In this document: piece by piece, positions 30,096-37,980 of the stretch
Position numbering within the stretch: position 1 is the first letter of the stretch
How the letters are laid out: every line of letters starts with the position of its first letter
Assembly (NCBI GenBank): GCA_945893365.1
Contig: CAMDED010000011.1
Coordinates: 1 to 64,000, forward strand
Length of the DNA stretch: 64,000 nucleotides
Direction of reading: 5' to 3'
Source of the DNA: Candidatus Sulfopaludibacter sp. SbA3
GTDB taxonomy: Bacteria > Acidobacteriota > Terriglobia > Bryobacterales > Bryobacteraceae
Translations under genes and position numbers: made by a program
Notes under the pieces: generated by a model
What the model was told of the DNA's origin: nothing
Database searches by the model: none
Seen by the model: the letters and a program-made list of their open reading frames with translations, nothing else

Positions 30096-31010
30096 ATGGC
30101 ATCGCTCGCTCTATCCGGAATTCACATTGCCGCGGTCACGCCCCACAAACGCGAGGGCCACGAGCCCGATATCGCCGCCACGCTCGACCTTGTGGACGCC
30201 TATTGCGACGCAGGCGCGAAGGGGATCGCGCTGCTCGGCTCTACCGGCGAGTTCCTGCACCTGAGGACGGAAGATCGCATTCGGCTGCTGAACCTGGCGC
30301 TCAAGCGAAGCCGTGTTCCCATCATCGCAGGCGTTTCGCATTCCACCCTTGATGGCGCGGTCGAATTGGCGCGCGCCGCTGCCTCCGCCGGCGCCGCCGC
30401 CGCCCTGTTGATGCCTCCCTACTTCTTCCGCTACCGCCAACAGGACGTCATGGAGTTCTATCTCGCGTACGCGAAGCAGATGCAGGGAGCGTTGCCCACG
30501 CTGCTCTACAACATTCCGTTCTTCACCACGCCGCTCGAATTCGAAACGTCTCGCGGCCTCCTCCGTAGCGGCCACTTTGCAGGCATCAAGGATTCGAGCG
30601 GAAACCTGAACGACTTCCGCTCGCTGCTTGCCCTTAGAAACGAAACGCCCTTCACCCTGTTCGTGGGCAACGACGAGATCTTCACCATTGGCCGCTCCGA
30701 AGGCGCGGATGGCGGCATCTCCGGCGTCGCGAGCGCGGTTCCCGAGCTGATGCTCTCGCTCGACGAATCCATCGCGTCCGGAAATGCCGCGAGGACCGCG
30801 CGCCTCGAGGACCGGTTGCAGGAATTCATCCGTTGGCTTGGCCGCTTCCCCGCTCCTGTCGGCGTAAAAGCAGCCACCGAAGCGCGCGGGCTTAAAGTCG
30901 GTCCGCTCGCCGTGCCTCTGTCGCCGGCGGACCGCGAGGAGCTTGATCGATTCAAGGCCTGGTTCAAGGAGTGGCTGCCCGTCGTGCGCCGGGAATCCGC
31001 CGCCGCATGA
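30096..31010 (+). CDS. DapA/NanA-family aldolase (dihydrodipicolinate-synthase-like)
   Basis: A 304-residue Schiff-base aldolase of the DHDPS/N-acetylneuraminate lyase family. It has the pyruvate-binding GSTGE loop (48-52), Y138 in LLYNIPF and the catalytic K165 in GIKDSSG. True DapA usually has GTTGE and the Tyr pair of the tetramer interface; here Ser replaces the first Thr and the surrounding sequence is divergent, so a catabolic aldolase or lyase is at least as likely. It is co-transcribed between hemB and the decarboxylase, with a 4-bp overlap to the latter. Its pathway is not evident. Confidence 0.85.
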   Translation: MASLALSGIHIAAVTPHKREGHEPDIAATLDLVDAYCDAGAKGIALLGSTGEFLHLRTEDRIRLLNLALKRSRVPIIAGVSHSTLDGAVELARAAASAGAAAALLMPPYFFRYRQQDVMEFYLAYAKQMQGALPTLLYNIPFFTTPLEFETSRGLLRSGHFAGIKDSSGNLNDFRSLLALRNETPFTLFVGNDEIFTIGRSEGADGGISGVASAVPELMLSLDESIASGNAARTARLEDRLQEFIRWLGRFPAPVGVKAATEARGLKVGPLAVPLSPADREELDRFKAWFKEWLPVVRRESAAA

Positions 31011-32356
31011 GTCCCGAAGAATTCCGTAAGTACGGATACGAAGCCGTGGATTGGATTGCGGACTTTCTCGCCCATCCGGAGCGTTATCCGGTCGTGCCGC
31101 AACGCCAGCCGGGCGAGTTGATCGACGCCTTGCCCGCCCACGGCCCGGAGACCGGCGAACCGATGTCCGCGATCCTGGAAGACTTCCGCCGCTTGATCGT
31201 GCCCGCGCTTACTCACTGGAATCATCCCGGATTCATGGCCTACTTCGCGACCTCGGCCTCCCCGCCCGGAATCCTGGGCGAAATGCTTGCAGCCGCCGTC
31301 AATCCGAACGGAATGCTATGGAAGACCGCGCCGGCCGTAACCGAGCTCGAACAGGTGACTCTCGGCTGGCTGCGCGAGTGGATTGGCCTGCCGCCGGAAT
31401 TTTTCGGCATGATCCACGACACGGCGTCAACAAGCACTATGCATGCCATCGCCGCCGCTCGTTCGGTAGCGTCCGAGGGCGATGGGCGCCTGGTGATGTA
31501 CGCCTCGGAGCAAGCTCATTCGTCCGTCGAAAAAGGCGGGCTTGCGCTCGGACTGGGACGCGATTGCCTGCGGAAAATACCGGTGGACGCTGAGTTCCGC
31601 ATGCTCCCAGGCGCGCTCGCCGAAGCCATCGGCCGCGATTTCGCCGCGGGATTCCGCCCGTTCTGCATCACGGCGACCGCGGGCACCACTTCGACGACCA
31701 GCGTCGACCCCATTCCCGCCATCGCGGAAATCGCCGCGCGCCACCGTGTCTGGCTCCACGTGGACGCCGCCTATGCTGGCGCAGCCACGCTCGCGCCGGA
31801 GTTCCGCTGGGTGCTTGAGGGCGCGGAGCACGCCGATTCGCTAGTCGTGAACCCGCATAAATGGATGTTCACGCCAGTCGACTTGAGCGCGTTTTACACC
31901 AGGCGGCCGGAAGTTCTGCGGCAGGCCTTTTCCCTCGTTCCGGAATACCTGCGTTCGGCCGGGCACCCGCGCGCGGTGAATCTCATGGACTACGGCGTGC
32001 CTCTCGGACGGCGCTTCCGGGCGTTGAAGCTGTGGTTCGTACTGCGCTCTTATGGACGCGAGGGCATCGCGGATATCATCCGCGCTCACGCCAGCTATGC
32101 CAAGGAATTGGCAGCCCTAGTGGACGCGCATCCGGACTTCGAGCGCATGGCTCCGGCTCCGTTCTCCGTAGTCTGCTTCCGCTTCAAGGGTACGGACGAG
32201 GAAAACCTGAAGCTCATCGAGCGCGTGAACGCAACGGGCCGCGCGTTTCTCTCGCACACCGTGCTCGATGGAAAAGTGGTGATCCGCCTCGCCATCGGTA
32301 ACATCGGAACCACCCGCGAACACGTGATGGAAGCGTGGCGGATGCTCAGTAGTTAG
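31007..32356 (+). CDS. Pyridoxal-phosphate group II aromatic-L-amino-acid-type decarboxylase
   Basis: A 449-residue decarboxylase starting at ATG 31007, overlapping the aldolase stop by 4 bp. It shows the PLP-lysine K285 in NPHKWMF, the cofactor-stacking H171 in EQAHSSVEKG, D253 in HVDAAYAG, and TAGTTSTTSVDP, all typical of the animal/plant-type aromatic amino acid decarboxylases also found in bacteria. Its substrate may be Phe, Tyr, Trp or DOPA, giving an amine. Residues 337-449 are encoded again, in broken form, at 36595-36936, and the region downstream is a foreign island. Thus its 3' end may be of imported origin. Confidence 0.9.
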   Translation: MSPEEFRKYGYEAVDWIADFLAHPERYPVVPQRQPGELIDALPAHGPETGEPMSAILEDFRRLIVPALTHWNHPGFMAYFATSASPPGILGEMLAAAVNPNGMLWKTAPAVTELEQVTLGWLREWIGLPPEFFGMIHDTASTSTMHAIAAARSVASEGDGRLVMYASEQAHSSVEKGGLALGLGRDCLRKIPVDAEFRMLPGALAEAIGRDFAAGFRPFCITATAGTTSTTSVDPIPAIAEIAARHRVWLHVDAAYAGAATLAPEFRWVLEGAEHADSLVVNPHKWMFTPVDLSAFYTRRPEVLRQAFSLVPEYLRSAGHPRAVNLMDYGVPLGRRFRALKLWFVLRSYGREGIADIIRAHASYAKELAALVDAHPDFERMAPAPFSVVCFRFKGTDEENLKLIERVNATGRAFLSHTVLDGKVVIRLAIGNIGTTREHVMEAWRMLSS

Positions 32357-32369
32357 TTTCCGAAGTTCG
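32017..32369 (+). repeat. Direct repeat copy A: 3' end of the decarboxylase gene
   Basis: From CCGGGCG at 32017 to GAAGTTCG just past the stop codon, this stretch matches 36595-36953. By hand count there are about 25 substitutions in 340 bases (about 92% identity), mostly at third codon positions. It marks the left boundary of the accessory gene island. Confidence 0.9.
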
Positions 32370-32442: not shown

Positions 32443-35400
32443 CTACTCCAACCGTCTGCGCACTGCTGCTTCAGAATCTTCCCAGGCGGCCTCACGTTCA
32501 TACGTCGTGGCAATCTGCCCCACCATATTGGCGACAAACGGATACTCGAATGCCAGTTTCCGTGACCAGTTCCGGTACTTCTCGGCAATCTCACGTTCTT
32601 GGCTACCGCCTACACCGCCCCGGTGGACGCCGCGTGAGTTTAAACGCCCGACACGCATACCGGAAGCGAGGTCCTCGGAACCGATCTCTTCCAGAGCCTC
32701 ACGTACGGCCTCACATGGCCATACGCCGTCATCGCCGTCGCGTGCCCAAGACAGAATCTGCCCGATCATCTGATCTCCAATCTTCGCGCGCGCATACTTC
32801 GAACATAAGGATCGCGCCTCCGCCAACCACGCCGTAAGTTTTGTCGACTTGATCGCTCCGTTTTCATCCGCACCGGGAATGCGTTTGATGTTTGCGAGGA
32901 GCGTATAGGCTGCATCCCCTACAGCCTGTTTTCGCTCCGCATTGCCGATGCTCCACTCTGGCGGGTCCCCGCCGTCGTCGCTTCGCTTGAAAGTTAGCGC
33001 CAATGCCTGTACGAATAGGGATGGCGACCCACTGATCTGGCGCTCCAAGTTCGGGATGCCGTGCCCACTATGCTCAAGTACCCTGATGAACAGAAACTCG
33101 AGCCGCGCCATTTCATCCGGTGTCACGCCCGTCCGGCTTTGCAGGATCTCAAGGGCGCAAGATAAGTGGTACTCGGGGACCTGGTAGGTTCCGGCGGCTT
33201 CCGCATCGCACGTAGCGACCTCGTGGAGCAGCCGTTTCAACCGGGACGTCTCCATTTCTGCTAGCGCGAAATGGACAGTTTGAAACGCGGCGCGGGGGCG
33301 CTGTGCCTCGAGAAGCCCGTCGACGACTTCATTGACTTCTGACGAGTTCAGCCCTATCCAGGACGGATGGACTTCGCGCCAGTACTGCGCGCGTATTTCC
33401 GGTTCCTGGGAATCGAAATGCTGCCATGTCTCCCCTTGAAAGGGCAAGCATTTGAACAGGCGACAGCGTTCGGGCGCAGGCAGGGTAGCCAGGAGGCTAG
33501 TGGTAATCTCTTGACGTCTTGTGTTATCCCCTGGCCGAAGGAAGCTACGAACGAGTTCGTCCATCTTATCGGTGGTCGCCGCGTTGTTGACTCTGAGACA
33601 CGTCTTGAGAAATGCGGATGCACCGGCGCTGTCAATCACCCCGTTAGCCATATGCCATCCGATCGCGGATGCGGCGCTACTTTCGGAGAGTAGGAACTGG
33701 ATGCCTTCAAATCCACTCTCTCTCCATATTTCTTGAAGGGCGGCAACTCGCTCTTTACCGACTCTCTCCTCCCGGCTCTGAAAGTCAAGACTCTCGTCGA
33801 ATAGCTCGTCCGCCGATTCCTCGATCCAGTTTGCAGCGAACAGCCATTGATGCCGGATAACGGCGTCCCGAGGGGCCAGAAGTGTGTATGCTTCACGCGC
33901 ACGGTCTTTTATTTCGCCACCAATTCCGCGATGCTTGCTCCACCGCGTGAAGGCATAGCGGCGGACACGTTCACGCAGGACCGCCTTAAGTTTGTCATCC
34001 TTCTCCGTTTTTGCCCAGCTTTCGATCAGACTCCATACCTTATGCTGGTCTTCTTCTGGAAGGCCGTGCAGGTTTTCAACTAGATCACCCAGAGTATTCG
34101 CGTCGTGTTTCGTCCACGCGATAGCAAGATCTAACGAATTTCTCGCAAACTCGTCTTTCTCTTTTCCAGTCACCGGTAGCCCCGCGCCGTGAGCATCGCT
34201 ACGCCAGCGCGGACGATAGCTATAGTGTCCGAGCCTGGAGCGCCGAGTAAAGTGGTAGAGGCAAACCTGCCAAGCCAAACGGGGGAACCGTTTCGTGAGG
34301 ATCGCAAGCGCTTTCTTCCTCTCGTCAATCGAAGCGGCAGTCTGTGGCATCCACGAGCGGTAAATGGCCAAAACGCTGTTGGCTGGCTTATTGGTCCAGT
34401 TGTCGTCTATCTCCCGCTCTGCCAGCTTTGCAAGTATCAAGGAGACACGGACGAGCTGGTCGGGCTTCCAGGCGAGGCTCTCCAGAGCCCAGAGCAGCCC
34501 AGTGCGGGGACAGCCGCCGAAAAAGCCGGTATCTGCCGGTTTCATGAGCGCGTAGATTTGCGGTTCCGCGGTTTTCAGGTCTGCCTCGATGATCTTAAGG
34601 AACTCCTCGGGAGCTGCTTCAGCGTAAAGAGGAAGATCATCGCTTTGCGAGAGAAGCTTCTCTGGGGTCAGTGGAGTCAGCAGGCTGCGAATCAAGAGAT
34701 TAACCTTCACTTCCATGTTGATCCCAAGTCGATCGGGGAAGAGACTGTTGCCGTGAACGGCCAGGAGGACGAGCGTTTCACAGATTCCTTCGCGCAGTGC
34801 ACGCGAGTGCTCCCTCGTCTTTCCGTACAAGCCAGCGAACGGCCTCTCGTCTTCCGGAAGGTCCAGCGCCGGATCGGTTTCCGACAACACTATTTCTGCC
34901 GCGAAGAGGAAGTCATCGAGGTTTTTTTGGATTACTTTTCCATGAACCGCAAAGAAGGCATCGATCTTTGATGAGACGCCTCGGACTTGGCCCACAGACC
35001 ATAGGGGAGGGTCATCAAATCTGAGCAAATCTGCGATCTGTTCCTCAATTTCGCTGTAGGGTCGCGCGGCAAGAGAGGAGAGGATCTCGCAATCAGCGTT
35101 TGAGTCCGCGTGCCATGCTCCGACAAGCATCATCGGGATAATGCCTTTGACCGCGCCGGCATCCTGTGTCCAGGGCGGCGACTTTATGGAGGGGTTTTTT
35201 GAGAGACGTCGCCGTAATATGGTGGGCGAGCGACCACATTCGCGCTCCAAGATTTCGGCGCGCTGGTCGTCGATCCCCATGGCCGCCAACGCCTTTCTGA
35301 ATGATTCGTGACTAAGCGAATCCACCACGATGTCAGGGTTTGGATCGATGGCATTTCTTGGGCGGACGATAATCGTATGAAGTTTGCAGTAAAGGCCACC

Positions 35401-36522
35401 GAGTTCTCGCGCTACTTCTTCTGTGAAAACCACGGGGATAAATTTCGAGGAGGATGACACCAACTTCCGCAACGTTTGCGCGCACGAAAATACGATCACT
35501 CTGTCTTTGTATCCTTCTGCCGCAAAGTCGTCCGCATCGAAGACACACGAAAGAAACGCCAACGCTTCGTCCTTGGAGTCCGCACACACGATAAGCGGCG
35601 CGGACGGCTCGTTCTTGATCCATGATGCCAGCTTGCCTTTGTGGCGCTCGACCGAAGGCTCAAAGATTCTCGTTGAAAGTTCCGGGTTTGTGACGGAAGC
35701 CCATTCCTGCCACCGCCTCTCCAGAGACTCGGCACCTTCACTAGGCAAACTAATCTGTTCTGCCATCCATCCCTGTGCGGGGAGTGAGTGCTCGAGCCAT
35801 TGTTCAAGGTTGCTCGCGTCGTAAGCCCTGACCGATTTCCATTTTCCAAGAGCCTTTTTCTCTTTTGCCCATTCATCCTTCGCGGGCCAATTCCGGGGCG
35901 TCACGAAGACAAAAGTTATTTCCGCGCGCTCGCGCGCGGGAATCGCACTCACACGGGCTGCAAAATCGCCCTCCGCCTTCTGCTTGGGCTTTTCGTTGCA
36001 GCCGAATTCCCAACCAGACTTGCCAAACGGCACCCACGGTGTCGCAGCTCCCGCTTCTACCTGCCCGTCCCAACCCTTTCTCTCGGCGTTATCATATCCG
36101 GGAAAGTCGACGTGCGAAAGAATTTGGCCTGTAGAATTGACAAGTCGCCTCAGAAATACGGCGAGCGTTGAACGAGCCTGGAGGTTTCCATCCGCCCAGT
36201 TTTCGATGTTCCTAGCCGTAATCTTGAGGAACGGGGGAACATAGGCAGCGACGGTAATATCCTTCTCGCCACTCCTGTCTTGAGATTGATCGAATTCGGC
36301 TTGGCGCTCAAGCAGCGCTTTCTGGCTAACCCCAAAAGCCTTTTCAAAACGGAAAGCCATGTCGCGTGATAGCGCTGCGTTCCCGTTGAGCAAATTCGAG
36401 AGCGCCGGACGACCGACGCCCAGAAGTTGAGCAGCAGCTTTCACGGAGAGGCCCGTTGGAAGCACTTTTTCTTTGATATAGACCCCAGGGTGCAGCGGCT
36501 CAAGGTTGTCTATTGGCGGCAT
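32443..36522 (-). CDS. HigA-type HTH fused to a restriction-endonuclease-like and large helical protein; candidate defence or toxin gene
   Basis: A 1359-residue protein. ATG 36522 is chosen over the TTG one codon upstream because AGGAGG (36527-36532) then has four bases of spacing. Residues about 8-75 are a HigA-family antitoxin HTH (HPGVYIKEKVLPTGLSV, LGVGRPALSNLLNG, ending in FGVSQKALLERQAEFD). Residues about 100-255 look like an endonuclease-fold region: HVDFPGYDNAERKGWDG, TPWVPFGKSGWEFG, then EITFVFVTPRNWPAKDEW and VRAYDASNLEQWLE; D152, E172 and a following Lys are candidate catalytic residues. Around 305-325, where related large NTPases as I remember them have a nucleotide-binding start, I see APLIVCADSKDEALAF but no Walker A. 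The remaining ~1000 residues are mainly helical, with a CGRSPTILRRRL segment. No HigB toxin is adjacent. It is more A/T-rich than its neighbours and lies between duplicated decarboxylase ends, so it is probably acquired. Function is inferred only. Confidence 0.8.
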   Translation of the reverse strand: MPPIDNLEPLHPGVYIKEKVLPTGLSVKAAAQLLGVGRPALSNLLNGNAALSRDMAFRFEKAFGVSQKALLERQAEFDQSQDRSGEKDITVAAYVPPFLKITARNIENWADGNLQARSTLAVFLRRLVNSTGQILSHVDFPGYDNAERKGWDGQVEAGAATPWVPFGKSGWEFGCNEKPKQKAEGDFAARVSAIPARERAEITFVFVTPRNWPAKDEWAKEKKALGKWKSVRAYDASNLEQWLEHSLPAQGWMAEQISLPSEGAESLERRWQEWASVTNPELSTRIFEPSVERHKGKLASWIKNEPSAPLIVCADSKDEALAFLSCVFDADDFAAEGYKDRVIVFSCAQTLRKLVSSSSKFIPVVFTEEVARELGGLYCKLHTIIVRPRNAIDPNPDIVVDSLSHESFRKALAAMGIDDQRAEILERECGRSPTILRRRLSKNPSIKSPPWTQDAGAVKGIIPMMLVGAWHADSNADCEILSSLAARPYSEIEEQIADLLRFDDPPLWSVGQVRGVSSKIDAFFAVHGKVIQKNLDDFLFAAEIVLSETDPALDLPEDERPFAGLYGKTREHSRALREGICETLVLLAVHGNSLFPDRLGINMEVKVNLLIRSLLTPLTPEKLLSQSDDLPLYAEAAPEEFLKIIEADLKTAEPQIYALMKPADTGFFGGCPRTGLLWALESLAWKPDQLVRVSLILAKLAEREIDDNWTNKPANSVLAIYRSWMPQTAASIDERKKALAILTKRFPRLAWQVCLYHFTRRSRLGHYSYRPRWRSDAHGAGLPVTGKEKDEFARNSLDLAIAWTKHDANTLGDLVENLHGLPEEDQHKVWSLIESWAKTEKDDKLKAVLRERVRRYAFTRWSKHRGIGGEIKDRAREAYTLLAPRDAVIRHQWLFAANWIEESADELFDESLDFQSREERVGKERVAALQEIWRESGFEGIQFLLSESSAASAIGWHMANGVIDSAGASAFLKTCLRVNNAATTDKMDELVRSFLRPGDNTRRQEITTSLLATLPAPERCRLFKCLPFQGETWQHFDSQEPEIRAQYWREVHPSWIGLNSSEVNEVVDGLLEAQRPRAAFQTVHFALAEMETSRLKRLLHEVATCDAEAAGTYQVPEYHLSCALEILQSRTGVTPDEMARLEFLFIRVLEHSGHGIPNLERQISGSPSLFVQALALTFKRSDDGGDPPEWSIGNAERKQAVGDAAYTLLANIKRIPGADENGAIKSTKLTAWLAEARSLCSKYARAKIGDQMIGQILSWARDGDDGVWPCEAVREALEEIGSEDLASGMRVGRLNSRGVHRGGVGGSQEREIAEKYRNWSRKLAFEYPFVANMVGQIATTYEREAAWEDSEAAVRRRLE

Positions 36523-36540
36523 CAAACCTCCTTGTGTATT

Positions 36541-36594: not shown

Positions 36595-36936
36595 CCGGGC
36601 GCTGAAGCTGTGGTTCGTACTGCGTTCTTACGGACGCGAGGGCATTGCGAAAATCATCCGCGCTCACACCGGCTATGCCAAGGAATTGGCAGCCCTTGTG
36701 GACGCGCATCCTGACTTCGAGCGCATGGCCCCGGCCCCGTACTCCGTCGTCTGCTTCCGCTTCAAGGGCACGGACGAGGAAAACCTGAAGCTCATCGAGG
36801 GGGTAAACGCGACTGGCCGCGCGTTTCTATCGCACGCACCGTGCTCGATGGCAAAGTGGTGATTCGCCTCGCCATCGGTAACATCGGAACCACCCGCGAA
36901 CACGTGATGGAAGCCTGGCGGATGCTCAGTTCGTAG
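36595..36936 (+). pseudogene. Broken duplicate of the decarboxylase 3' end
   Basis: The sequence encodes residues 337-449 of the decarboxylase (RALKLWFVLRSYGREGI, then HPDFERMAPAPYSVVCFRF, to EAWRMLSS and TAG). It lacks the 5' three-quarters, including the PLP lysine. A 2-bp insertion at about 36837 (CGCACGCACCG against CGCACACCG) breaks the frame. Because most differences from the intact copy are synonymous, both copies seem to have evolved as working genes before this one was displaced. Confidence 0.9.
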
Positions 36937-36953
36937 TCCGTTTCTGAAGTTCG
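36595..36953 (+). repeat. Direct repeat copy B: right boundary of the island
   Basis: Counterpart of 32017-32369 in the same orientation, ending with TTTCTGAAGTTCG after the stop codon. A third GAAGTTC lies at 36581-36587, just before this copy, and one at 32362-32368 ends copy A, so the 4.2-kb segment between them is itself bounded by the 7-mer GAAGTTC. Confidence 0.9.
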
Positions 36954-37345: not shown

Positions 37346-37579
37346 ATGGAACGCACGATCACTCTGCCGGACGAACTTCAATCTCAACTGGAAGAGACCG
37401 CCCGCGCGGAAGGCAGGACTCTTTCAGAAGTGATGCAGGAAGCCGCCGAGCGATACCTGAACCATAGGAGCCTTGATCGGCTGCTGGAGCGGGGGCGTAA
37501 ATATGCCGCCGCCAAGCCCTTCACCGCTGCTGATGTTCCGCGTCTCGTCCGCAAGACCCGATCCGAACGCTCGCGGTGA
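37346..37579 (+). CDS. Ribbon-helix-helix antitoxin
   Basis: A 77-residue protein. The N-terminal strand MERTITLPDELQSQL and helices EEGR-like ARAEGRTLSEVMQEAAERYL form the ribbon-helix-helix fold that binds operator DNA as a dimer. The C-terminal part (LDRLLERGRKYAAAKPF) would wrap the toxin. It overlaps the PIN toxin gene by 4 bp (GTGA), the classic antitoxin-first order, and should repress its own operon. Confidence 0.85.
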   Translation: MERTITLPDELQSQLEETARAEGRTLSEVMQEAAERYLNHRSLDRLLERGRKYAAAKPFTAADVPRLVRKTRSERSR

Positions 37580-37980
37580 AGCGCGTCACTCTGGATACAA
37601 ACGAGTACATCTCCGCGCTCCAGTACGGCGGCAGAGCCATGCGGCTTCTACATATGGCGGTAGACGGCGATATCGAGATCGCGATTTCCGCGCCGATTAT
37701 TTCCGAAGTGCTCCGGGTTCTGCGAGAAAAGTTCGACTGGCAGCCGTATGATCTGAATGACGCTGCGCAGCGACTGCGGAAAATAGCCCGCCTCGTGGCG
37801 CCCACTGAGACGCTCAGTGTCACTCACGATGAGCCGGACAATCGGATTCTGGAATGCGCAAAAACCGCCGGCTCCGAGGGCATCGTCACGGAAGACAAGG
37901 ACCTCCTCCGCATCGGGGCGTTTGAGGGGATCAAGATTCTGAACGCTTCAGACTTCCTGCAGGCAGGCCGGAGCAGGTAG
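37576..37980 (+). CDS. PIN-domain toxin (PIN_3-type ribonuclease)
   Basis: A 134-residue protein that starts with GTG 37576 inside the antitoxin stop. The PIN nuclease site is complete: D7 (LDTNEYISAL), E44 (SEVLRVL), D88 (DEPDNRILECA) and D107/D109 (TEDKDLL). These coordinate Mg for RNA cleavage, so the toxin should be active. It is paired with the ribbon-helix-helix antitoxin. The target RNA is unknown; related toxins cut tRNA or rRNA. Confidence 0.88.
   Translation: MKRVTLDTNEYISALQYGGRAMRLLHMAVDGDIEIAISAPIISEVLRVLREKFDWQPYDLNDAAQRLRKIARLVAPTETLSVTHDEPDNRILECAKTAGSEGIVTEDKDLLRIGAFEGIKILNASDFLQAGRSR

Follow-up and report, generated by a model that had tools for sequence, protein, structure and literature searches.

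The DNA considered here (the window) is a 64,000-nucleotide stretch of contig CAMDED010000011.1 from the acidobacterium Candidatus Sulfopaludibacter sp. SbA3, and the subject of this report is one of its genes, a single minus-strand unit that joins a HigA-type helix-turn-helix (HTH) to a nuclease-like domain, an NTPase-like domain and a long helical tail (Table 1). The reading frame opens with an ATG at 36522, closes with a stop at 32443-32445 and has no internal stop; on balance, it probably encodes a horizontally acquired, single-gene immune receptor of the Avs/PD-Lambda-4 type with a built-in repressor. Scans with Pfam and NCBIfam recognised no named domain in the protein outside the HTH, and the Pfam scan matched no peptidase. 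Sequence searches of the PDB reached the HTH alone; matches of the NTPase region to 9jix and 4i1u were weak and are not relied on. A consensus promoter/terminator scan gave a result no better than chance, and an Rfam search around the gene found no match.

Table 1. Features of the fused gene and of its flanks (window positions)
Feature	Position	Strand	Basis
Fused gene, 1359 aa, single-gene unit: HigA-HTH / PD-(D/E)xK-like / degenerate NTPase / helical solenoid	32443..36522	-	
Ribosome-binding site AGGAGG	36527..36532	-	
HigA-type HTH, residues 7-79	36286..36504	-	TIGR02607 and Foldseek
PD-(D/E)xK-like domain, residues 97-260	35743..36234	-	Predicted structure, hhalign, conservation across members
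NTPase-like alpha/beta domain without Walker A, residues 265-445	35188..35730	-	Predicted structure, hhalign, Foldseek
Likely winged helix after the NTPase-like domain, residues 475-516	34975..35100	-	Inferred from secondary structure
HEAT/karyopherin-like alpha-solenoid, residues 520-1359, presumed sensor	32446..34965	-	Predicted structure
Palindromic HigA-type candidate operator TGTAGCGTGTTACGCTACA (minus strand), 19 bp upstream of the start codon	36542..36560	.	
Flanking direct repeat, copy 1: 3' end of intact decarboxylase gene	32017..32357	+	
Flanking direct repeat, copy 2: frame-shifted decarboxylase 3' fragment	36595..36937	+	

The HTH belongs to the HigA family, as a preliminary description of this DNA had proposed. 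It scores 54.2 bits (E 9.8e-15) with TIGR02607, above the cut-off of 47.7, HTH_3 is also matched, and the HTH of the AlphaFold2 model resembles GraA and HigA in Foldseek (TMt up to about 0.8). The remark that no HigB toxin is encoded nearby likewise holds: PF05015 is absent from contig C11, which carries the gene, and the matches in this genome lie on C29, C106 and C123 only. Among tested genomes with listed coordinates, the nearest same-contig PF05015 match is about 13 kb off, in G351.

An AlphaFold2 model of residues 1-500, built from 19 sequences (pLDDT 87), places the HTH first, then a nuclease-like core and then an alpha/beta NTPase-like domain. Residues 113-234 are predicted to form an alpha-beta-beta-beta-alpha-beta core of PD-(D/E)xK-like type, in which D152 opens one strand and E172 closes the following one, in agreement with the endonuclease-like fold suspected earlier. 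A model of residues 262-1359 (pLDDT 87) contains an alpha-solenoid with matches to HEAT/karyopherin proteins and, ahead of it, a likely winged helix. Of the roughly 1000 helical residues initially described, the solenoid from about residue 520 to the end at 1359 is borne out, whereas residues 265-445 are predicted to be alpha/beta and NTPase-like, and 475-516 winged-helix-like.

When the model of residues 1-500 was compared with solved structures by Foldseek, Avs4 ranked best (E 2.9e-5), with Avs3, SAMD9 and Apaf-1 lower. Independently of structure, hhalign matched the family to relatives of PD-Lambda-4_A with a probability of 98.8 (E 8.9e-17) over 824 colinear columns, spanning the nuclease, NTPase and helical parts (about residues 97-990 of the window protein). 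The PADLOC profile for PD-Lambda-4_A weakly matched 13 of 24 members (best E 4.2e-6) and was the only PADLOC match, also weak, to the window protein (residues 634-739, E 0.002). As a check on specificity, each profile was run against all reading frames of at least 250 amino acids in 30 loci, the window included, and scores were obtained only for family members and two PD-Lambda-4-like neighbours. By sequence and model together, the core is a diverged, colinear remote relative of PD-Lambda-4_A/Avs-type immune proteins.

The family is patchily distributed. A search with residues 95-1359 gave relatives in 17 of the 396 sampled genomes of the phylum (about 4%), and the full-length query identified relatives in genomes of Planctomycetota and Pseudomonadota and matched 51 plasmid records, some through the HTH alone. 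The viral contigs searched contained no relative, and because the single match among INPHARED phages is an unverified 6.6-kb scaffold, this does not appear to be a typical phage gene. In a tree of 33 cores, a fully supported branch separates the 16 HigA-headed proteins from the rest, the nine Xre-headed proteins fall in another fully supported group, and the others carry a MerR-like HTH or none. Since sister clades carry Xre, MerR-like or no HTH, the HTH is, judging from these sequences, an accessory that has been gained, lost or swapped.

Particular members illustrate further forms. For example, an Arthrobacter plasmid member (L076:6851-10813) has a MerR/excisionase-type HTH (HTH_17) in place of HigA/Xre, and genome G503 possesses two distinct full-length HigA-headed copies (L039 and L052). 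In L036:8470-10974, a GHKL (HSP90-like) ATPase domain stands N-terminal to the family's C-terminal half (from about residue 690), a fusion that may have arisen when a deletion joined two neighbouring defence genes.

Upstream of the window gene lies a perfect palindrome, TGTAGCG-TGTTA-CGCTACA, which is a single site in the window where none is expected (counted within the window only). A TGTAGCG/CGCTACA palindrome with at least 13 of 14 positions, at most 120 bp upstream, precedes eight of the 16 HigA-headed genes (shuffle mean 0.015) and none of the 19 members without a HigA head; in this scoring, the shorter form (TGTAGCGCTACA) has its central CG counted twice. A nearly identical palindrome (13/14) stands before higB in the higBA locus of G141, and at most other higBA loci inspected the palindrome is different or not clear. 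HigA and GraA repress their own promoters via a palindrome (PMC6987408, PMC6393540), and autorepression, as the simplest reading of an HTH combined with a promoter palindrome, is most likely here as well. Upstream of the start codon, the Xre-headed members L025, L067 and L068 have a separate palindrome (GTCATATATTTCATATGAC) that overlaps the start region, which suggests autorepression through another operator. A palindrome resembling that of the Xre-headed members is also present in L072 (ATCATATTTAATATATGAT).

The presence of HigA invites other explanations. The preliminary description had suggested that a toxin-antitoxin regulator and its effector may share one chain, such that the HigA part would neutralise a toxic nuclease part. 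The HigA family match is indeed genuine, and PD-Lambda-2B, in which a HigA-like HTH is fused to a peptidase, is toxic alone (PMC9519451). However, in sister clades the same core comes without an HTH or with an unrelated one, and an essential cis-antitoxin should not vary in this way; moreover, the operator palindrome accounts for the presence of HigA, and HigA folds bind HigB, which the core is not. With a core related to PD-Lambda-4_A and Avs, the single-chain proposal is quite improbable, and because of the promoter palindrome and the absence or replacement of the HTH in sister clades, the HTH is read as an autorepressor on an immune receptor rather than a cis-antitoxin. A DNA-binding HTH and a palindrome could also belong to an ordinary large transcription regulator of host genes, but this is barely credible given that the palindrome sits at the promoter of the gene itself and has no second copy in the window, and given the patchy spread and the immune-receptor architecture of the protein.

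The surroundings of the gene bear on its origin. Its two flanking repeats are copies of the 3' end of a decarboxylase gene, the first belonging to the intact gene at 30971-32356; they are 91% and 89% identical in two pieces, with no further copy in the genome, and the second is disrupted by a 2-bp frameshift, so the segment is bounded by repeated host sequence just as first noted. Over 80 codons compared, the copies show 14 silent and five non-silent differences, and their mutual identity exceeds the 81-85% that they share with the single copy in two same-genus genomes. In these two genomes (86% and 73% complete), the decarboxylase gene is present, the fused gene was not matched, and the sequence downstream of the decarboxylase gene differs. 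The fused gene has a GC content of 56.0% and a third-position GC (GC3) of 0.62, versus a GC3 of 0.74-0.85 in neighbouring genes. Low GC and GC3 and duplicated flanks mark the gene as acquired DNA, and the earlier view of it as acquired is upheld; the duplication around it either arose in this lineage or was brought in from a close relative. Integration of the tRNA type was considered and rejected, since there is no tRNA at the insertion. Just beyond the duplicated flank is a VapBC-like pair at 37346-37980 (+), comprising a ribbon-helix-helix antitoxin (37346-37579) and a PIN toxin (37576-37980); given this pair, the acquired DNA may form an island of two modules.

Relatives of the gene adjoin a variety of defence genes, including AbiE, SIR2/Abi/RES-Xre, and a type I restriction-modification system accompanied by another restriction endonuclease; other neighbours are reverse transcriptases, SLATT and a Shedu domain. 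Among 87 chromosomal neighbours, PADLOC identified a type IV restriction endonuclease (9e-216), a CBASS cyclase (2e-124) and phospholipase (1e-160), DRT UG29 and others, which amounts to a list rather than a measure of enrichment. The closest HigA-headed homologues have mostly host genes as their immediate chromosomal neighbours, together with a transposase and an Xre/MbcA antitoxin, and so these copies resemble single-gene inserts standing alone, not members of islands. With relatives in defence islands and on plasmids, the preliminary description was probably right in assigning the gene to defence. Many relatives reside on conjugative plasmids, one of them directly behind ParA/ParB, and it might be argued that the gene serves plasmid or mobile-element maintenance, or competition between elements, instead of acting against phages; we give this little credence, in view of chromosomal copies in several phyla and of anti-phage systems as neighbours.

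Several observations weigh against the immune-receptor reading. Foldseek TM-scores to Avs4 and Avs3 are low (0.22-0.23 of the query, with a root-mean-square deviation of 12-18), as they are across the large proteins matched (0.22-0.24), and the similarity is therefore domain by domain and not a superposition. A clear operator copy is not present at eight of the 16 HigA-headed genes, and no partner or defence gene adjoins the fused gene except the VapBC-like pair 0.8 kb off. Walker A is absent family-wide (a GK(S/T) P-loop in none of the 35 aligned members), and the position of the canonical nuclease lysine is occupied by G174 in 32 of 35 and by lysine in none. In the window protein, CADSKDEA aligns to the P-loop GHSGVGKT of PD-Lambda-4_A, and E172-F-G174 replaces QVK, the GFQVK of PD-Lambda-4_A aligning to GWEFG. 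Because Walker A and the canonical lysine are missing, neither ATP-driven assembly nor catalysis can be assumed: the usual nucleotide binding is not expected of the NTPase-like domain, and the predicted nuclease would either rely on K182 or be inactive.

These losses, shared by every member, would also suit a protein whose nuclease-like and NTPase-like domains are dead, and which acts as a regulator, decoy or sensor subunit via, for example, an intact PD-Lambda-4-type nSTAND protein. On two Rhizobium plasmids, a PD-Lambda-4_A-type protein with an intact P-loop (GASGLGKS) lies directly behind an Xre-headed member (L069:10850-14695, with a 64 bp gap, and L025:12191-15688, about 0.4 kb away by annotation), where pairing of a P-loop-less with an intact receptor is possible. 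The window gene and nearly all other loci are without such a partner nearby, and D152 is kept in all 34 members with a residue there (35 aligned), E172 in 33 of 35 and K182 in 32 of 35. Conservation of all three residues in at least 32 of 35 proteins whose identity falls to 22% is unexpected for a dead site, and this explanation is accordingly judged rather unlikely. In one plasmid member from Buttiauxella (L077:6875-9643), the nuclease region is missing and a short SSVSQNHTGTGHNVAGD segment lies close to the start.

Under the favoured immune-receptor reading, a dimer of the HigA-type HTH would bind the palindrome at the gene's own promoter and keep expression low, and the C-terminal alpha-solenoid, by analogy with Avs, would recognise a sign of infection, for instance a structural protein of a phage. 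The winged-helix/NTPase-like core would then relay the signal by shape change or oligomerisation without a canonical P-loop, and the N-terminal PD-(D/E)xK-like domain would attack nucleic acid, resulting in abortive infection or in restriction of DNA; K182, which lies on the following helix, may take the place of the canonical catalytic lysine. The product is probably a self-repressed anti-phage protein, with defence function and nuclease activity as predictions. More tentatively, and with some doubt, the gene may represent a widespread, unnamed family of P-loop-free Avs-like receptors that transmit the signal and activate the nuclease without binding ATP at a Walker A site, have moved the catalytic lysine to K182, and carry a swappable, self-repressing head (HigA, Xre or MerR-like). 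The family is nearly invisible to PADLOC, yet its core occurs in about 4% of the phylum's sampled genomes and is carried by dozens of plasmids. Should a role in defence be confirmed, it would add a family of immune receptors with a built-in repressor, and would permit a direct test of whether NLR-like bacterial receptors function after loss of the P-loop thought to drive their assembly.

Taken as a whole, the protein combines features of several known systems. Component A of PD-Lambda-4, reportedly from Vassallo et al. 2022 and represented in PADLOC by PDLC03990 and PDLC03991, shares its order and length of parts (a PD-(D/E)xK-like head, an NTPase and a helical tail of about 800 residues); relatives of PD-Lambda-4_A have the P-loop and QVK and no HTH, whereas the window protein lacks both motifs and bears HigA. 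Avs4 and Avs3, which are AVAST, nSTAND receptors of phage proteins, possess a nuclease head, a STAND-type core and helical repeats, a layout predicted for the window protein too, with its head nuclease-like, and they are the best PDB fold matches; however, the similarity is at the domain level only, and the window protein has lost Walker A, ends in a HEAT-like tail and carries an HTH in front. With HigBA (HigA/GraA), the gene shares the HTH family and a palindromic candidate operator at its own promoter, but it has no HigB, and the antitoxin part makes up about 6% of the chain. In PD-Lambda-2, a proven defence system consisting of HigB, a HigA-peptidase fusion and a third component (PMC9519451), a HigA-like HTH is also fused to another domain, although that domain is a peptidase rather than a nuclease/NTPase/solenoid, and the system has three components, HigB among them. 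Finally, the XRE-family HTH protein CdxB represses the CARD-NLR-like system LypABC, which is lethal on overexpression, and LypA is likewise without Walker residues (PMC13236601); CdxB differs in being a separate repressor gene, with an unrelated effector and no fusion. The initial statement that no named system has this architecture is accurate insofar as PADLOC gives no confident match, but it was too strong, because an existing architecture has been varied and the fusion of HigA to an effector has a precedent in PD-Lambda-2.

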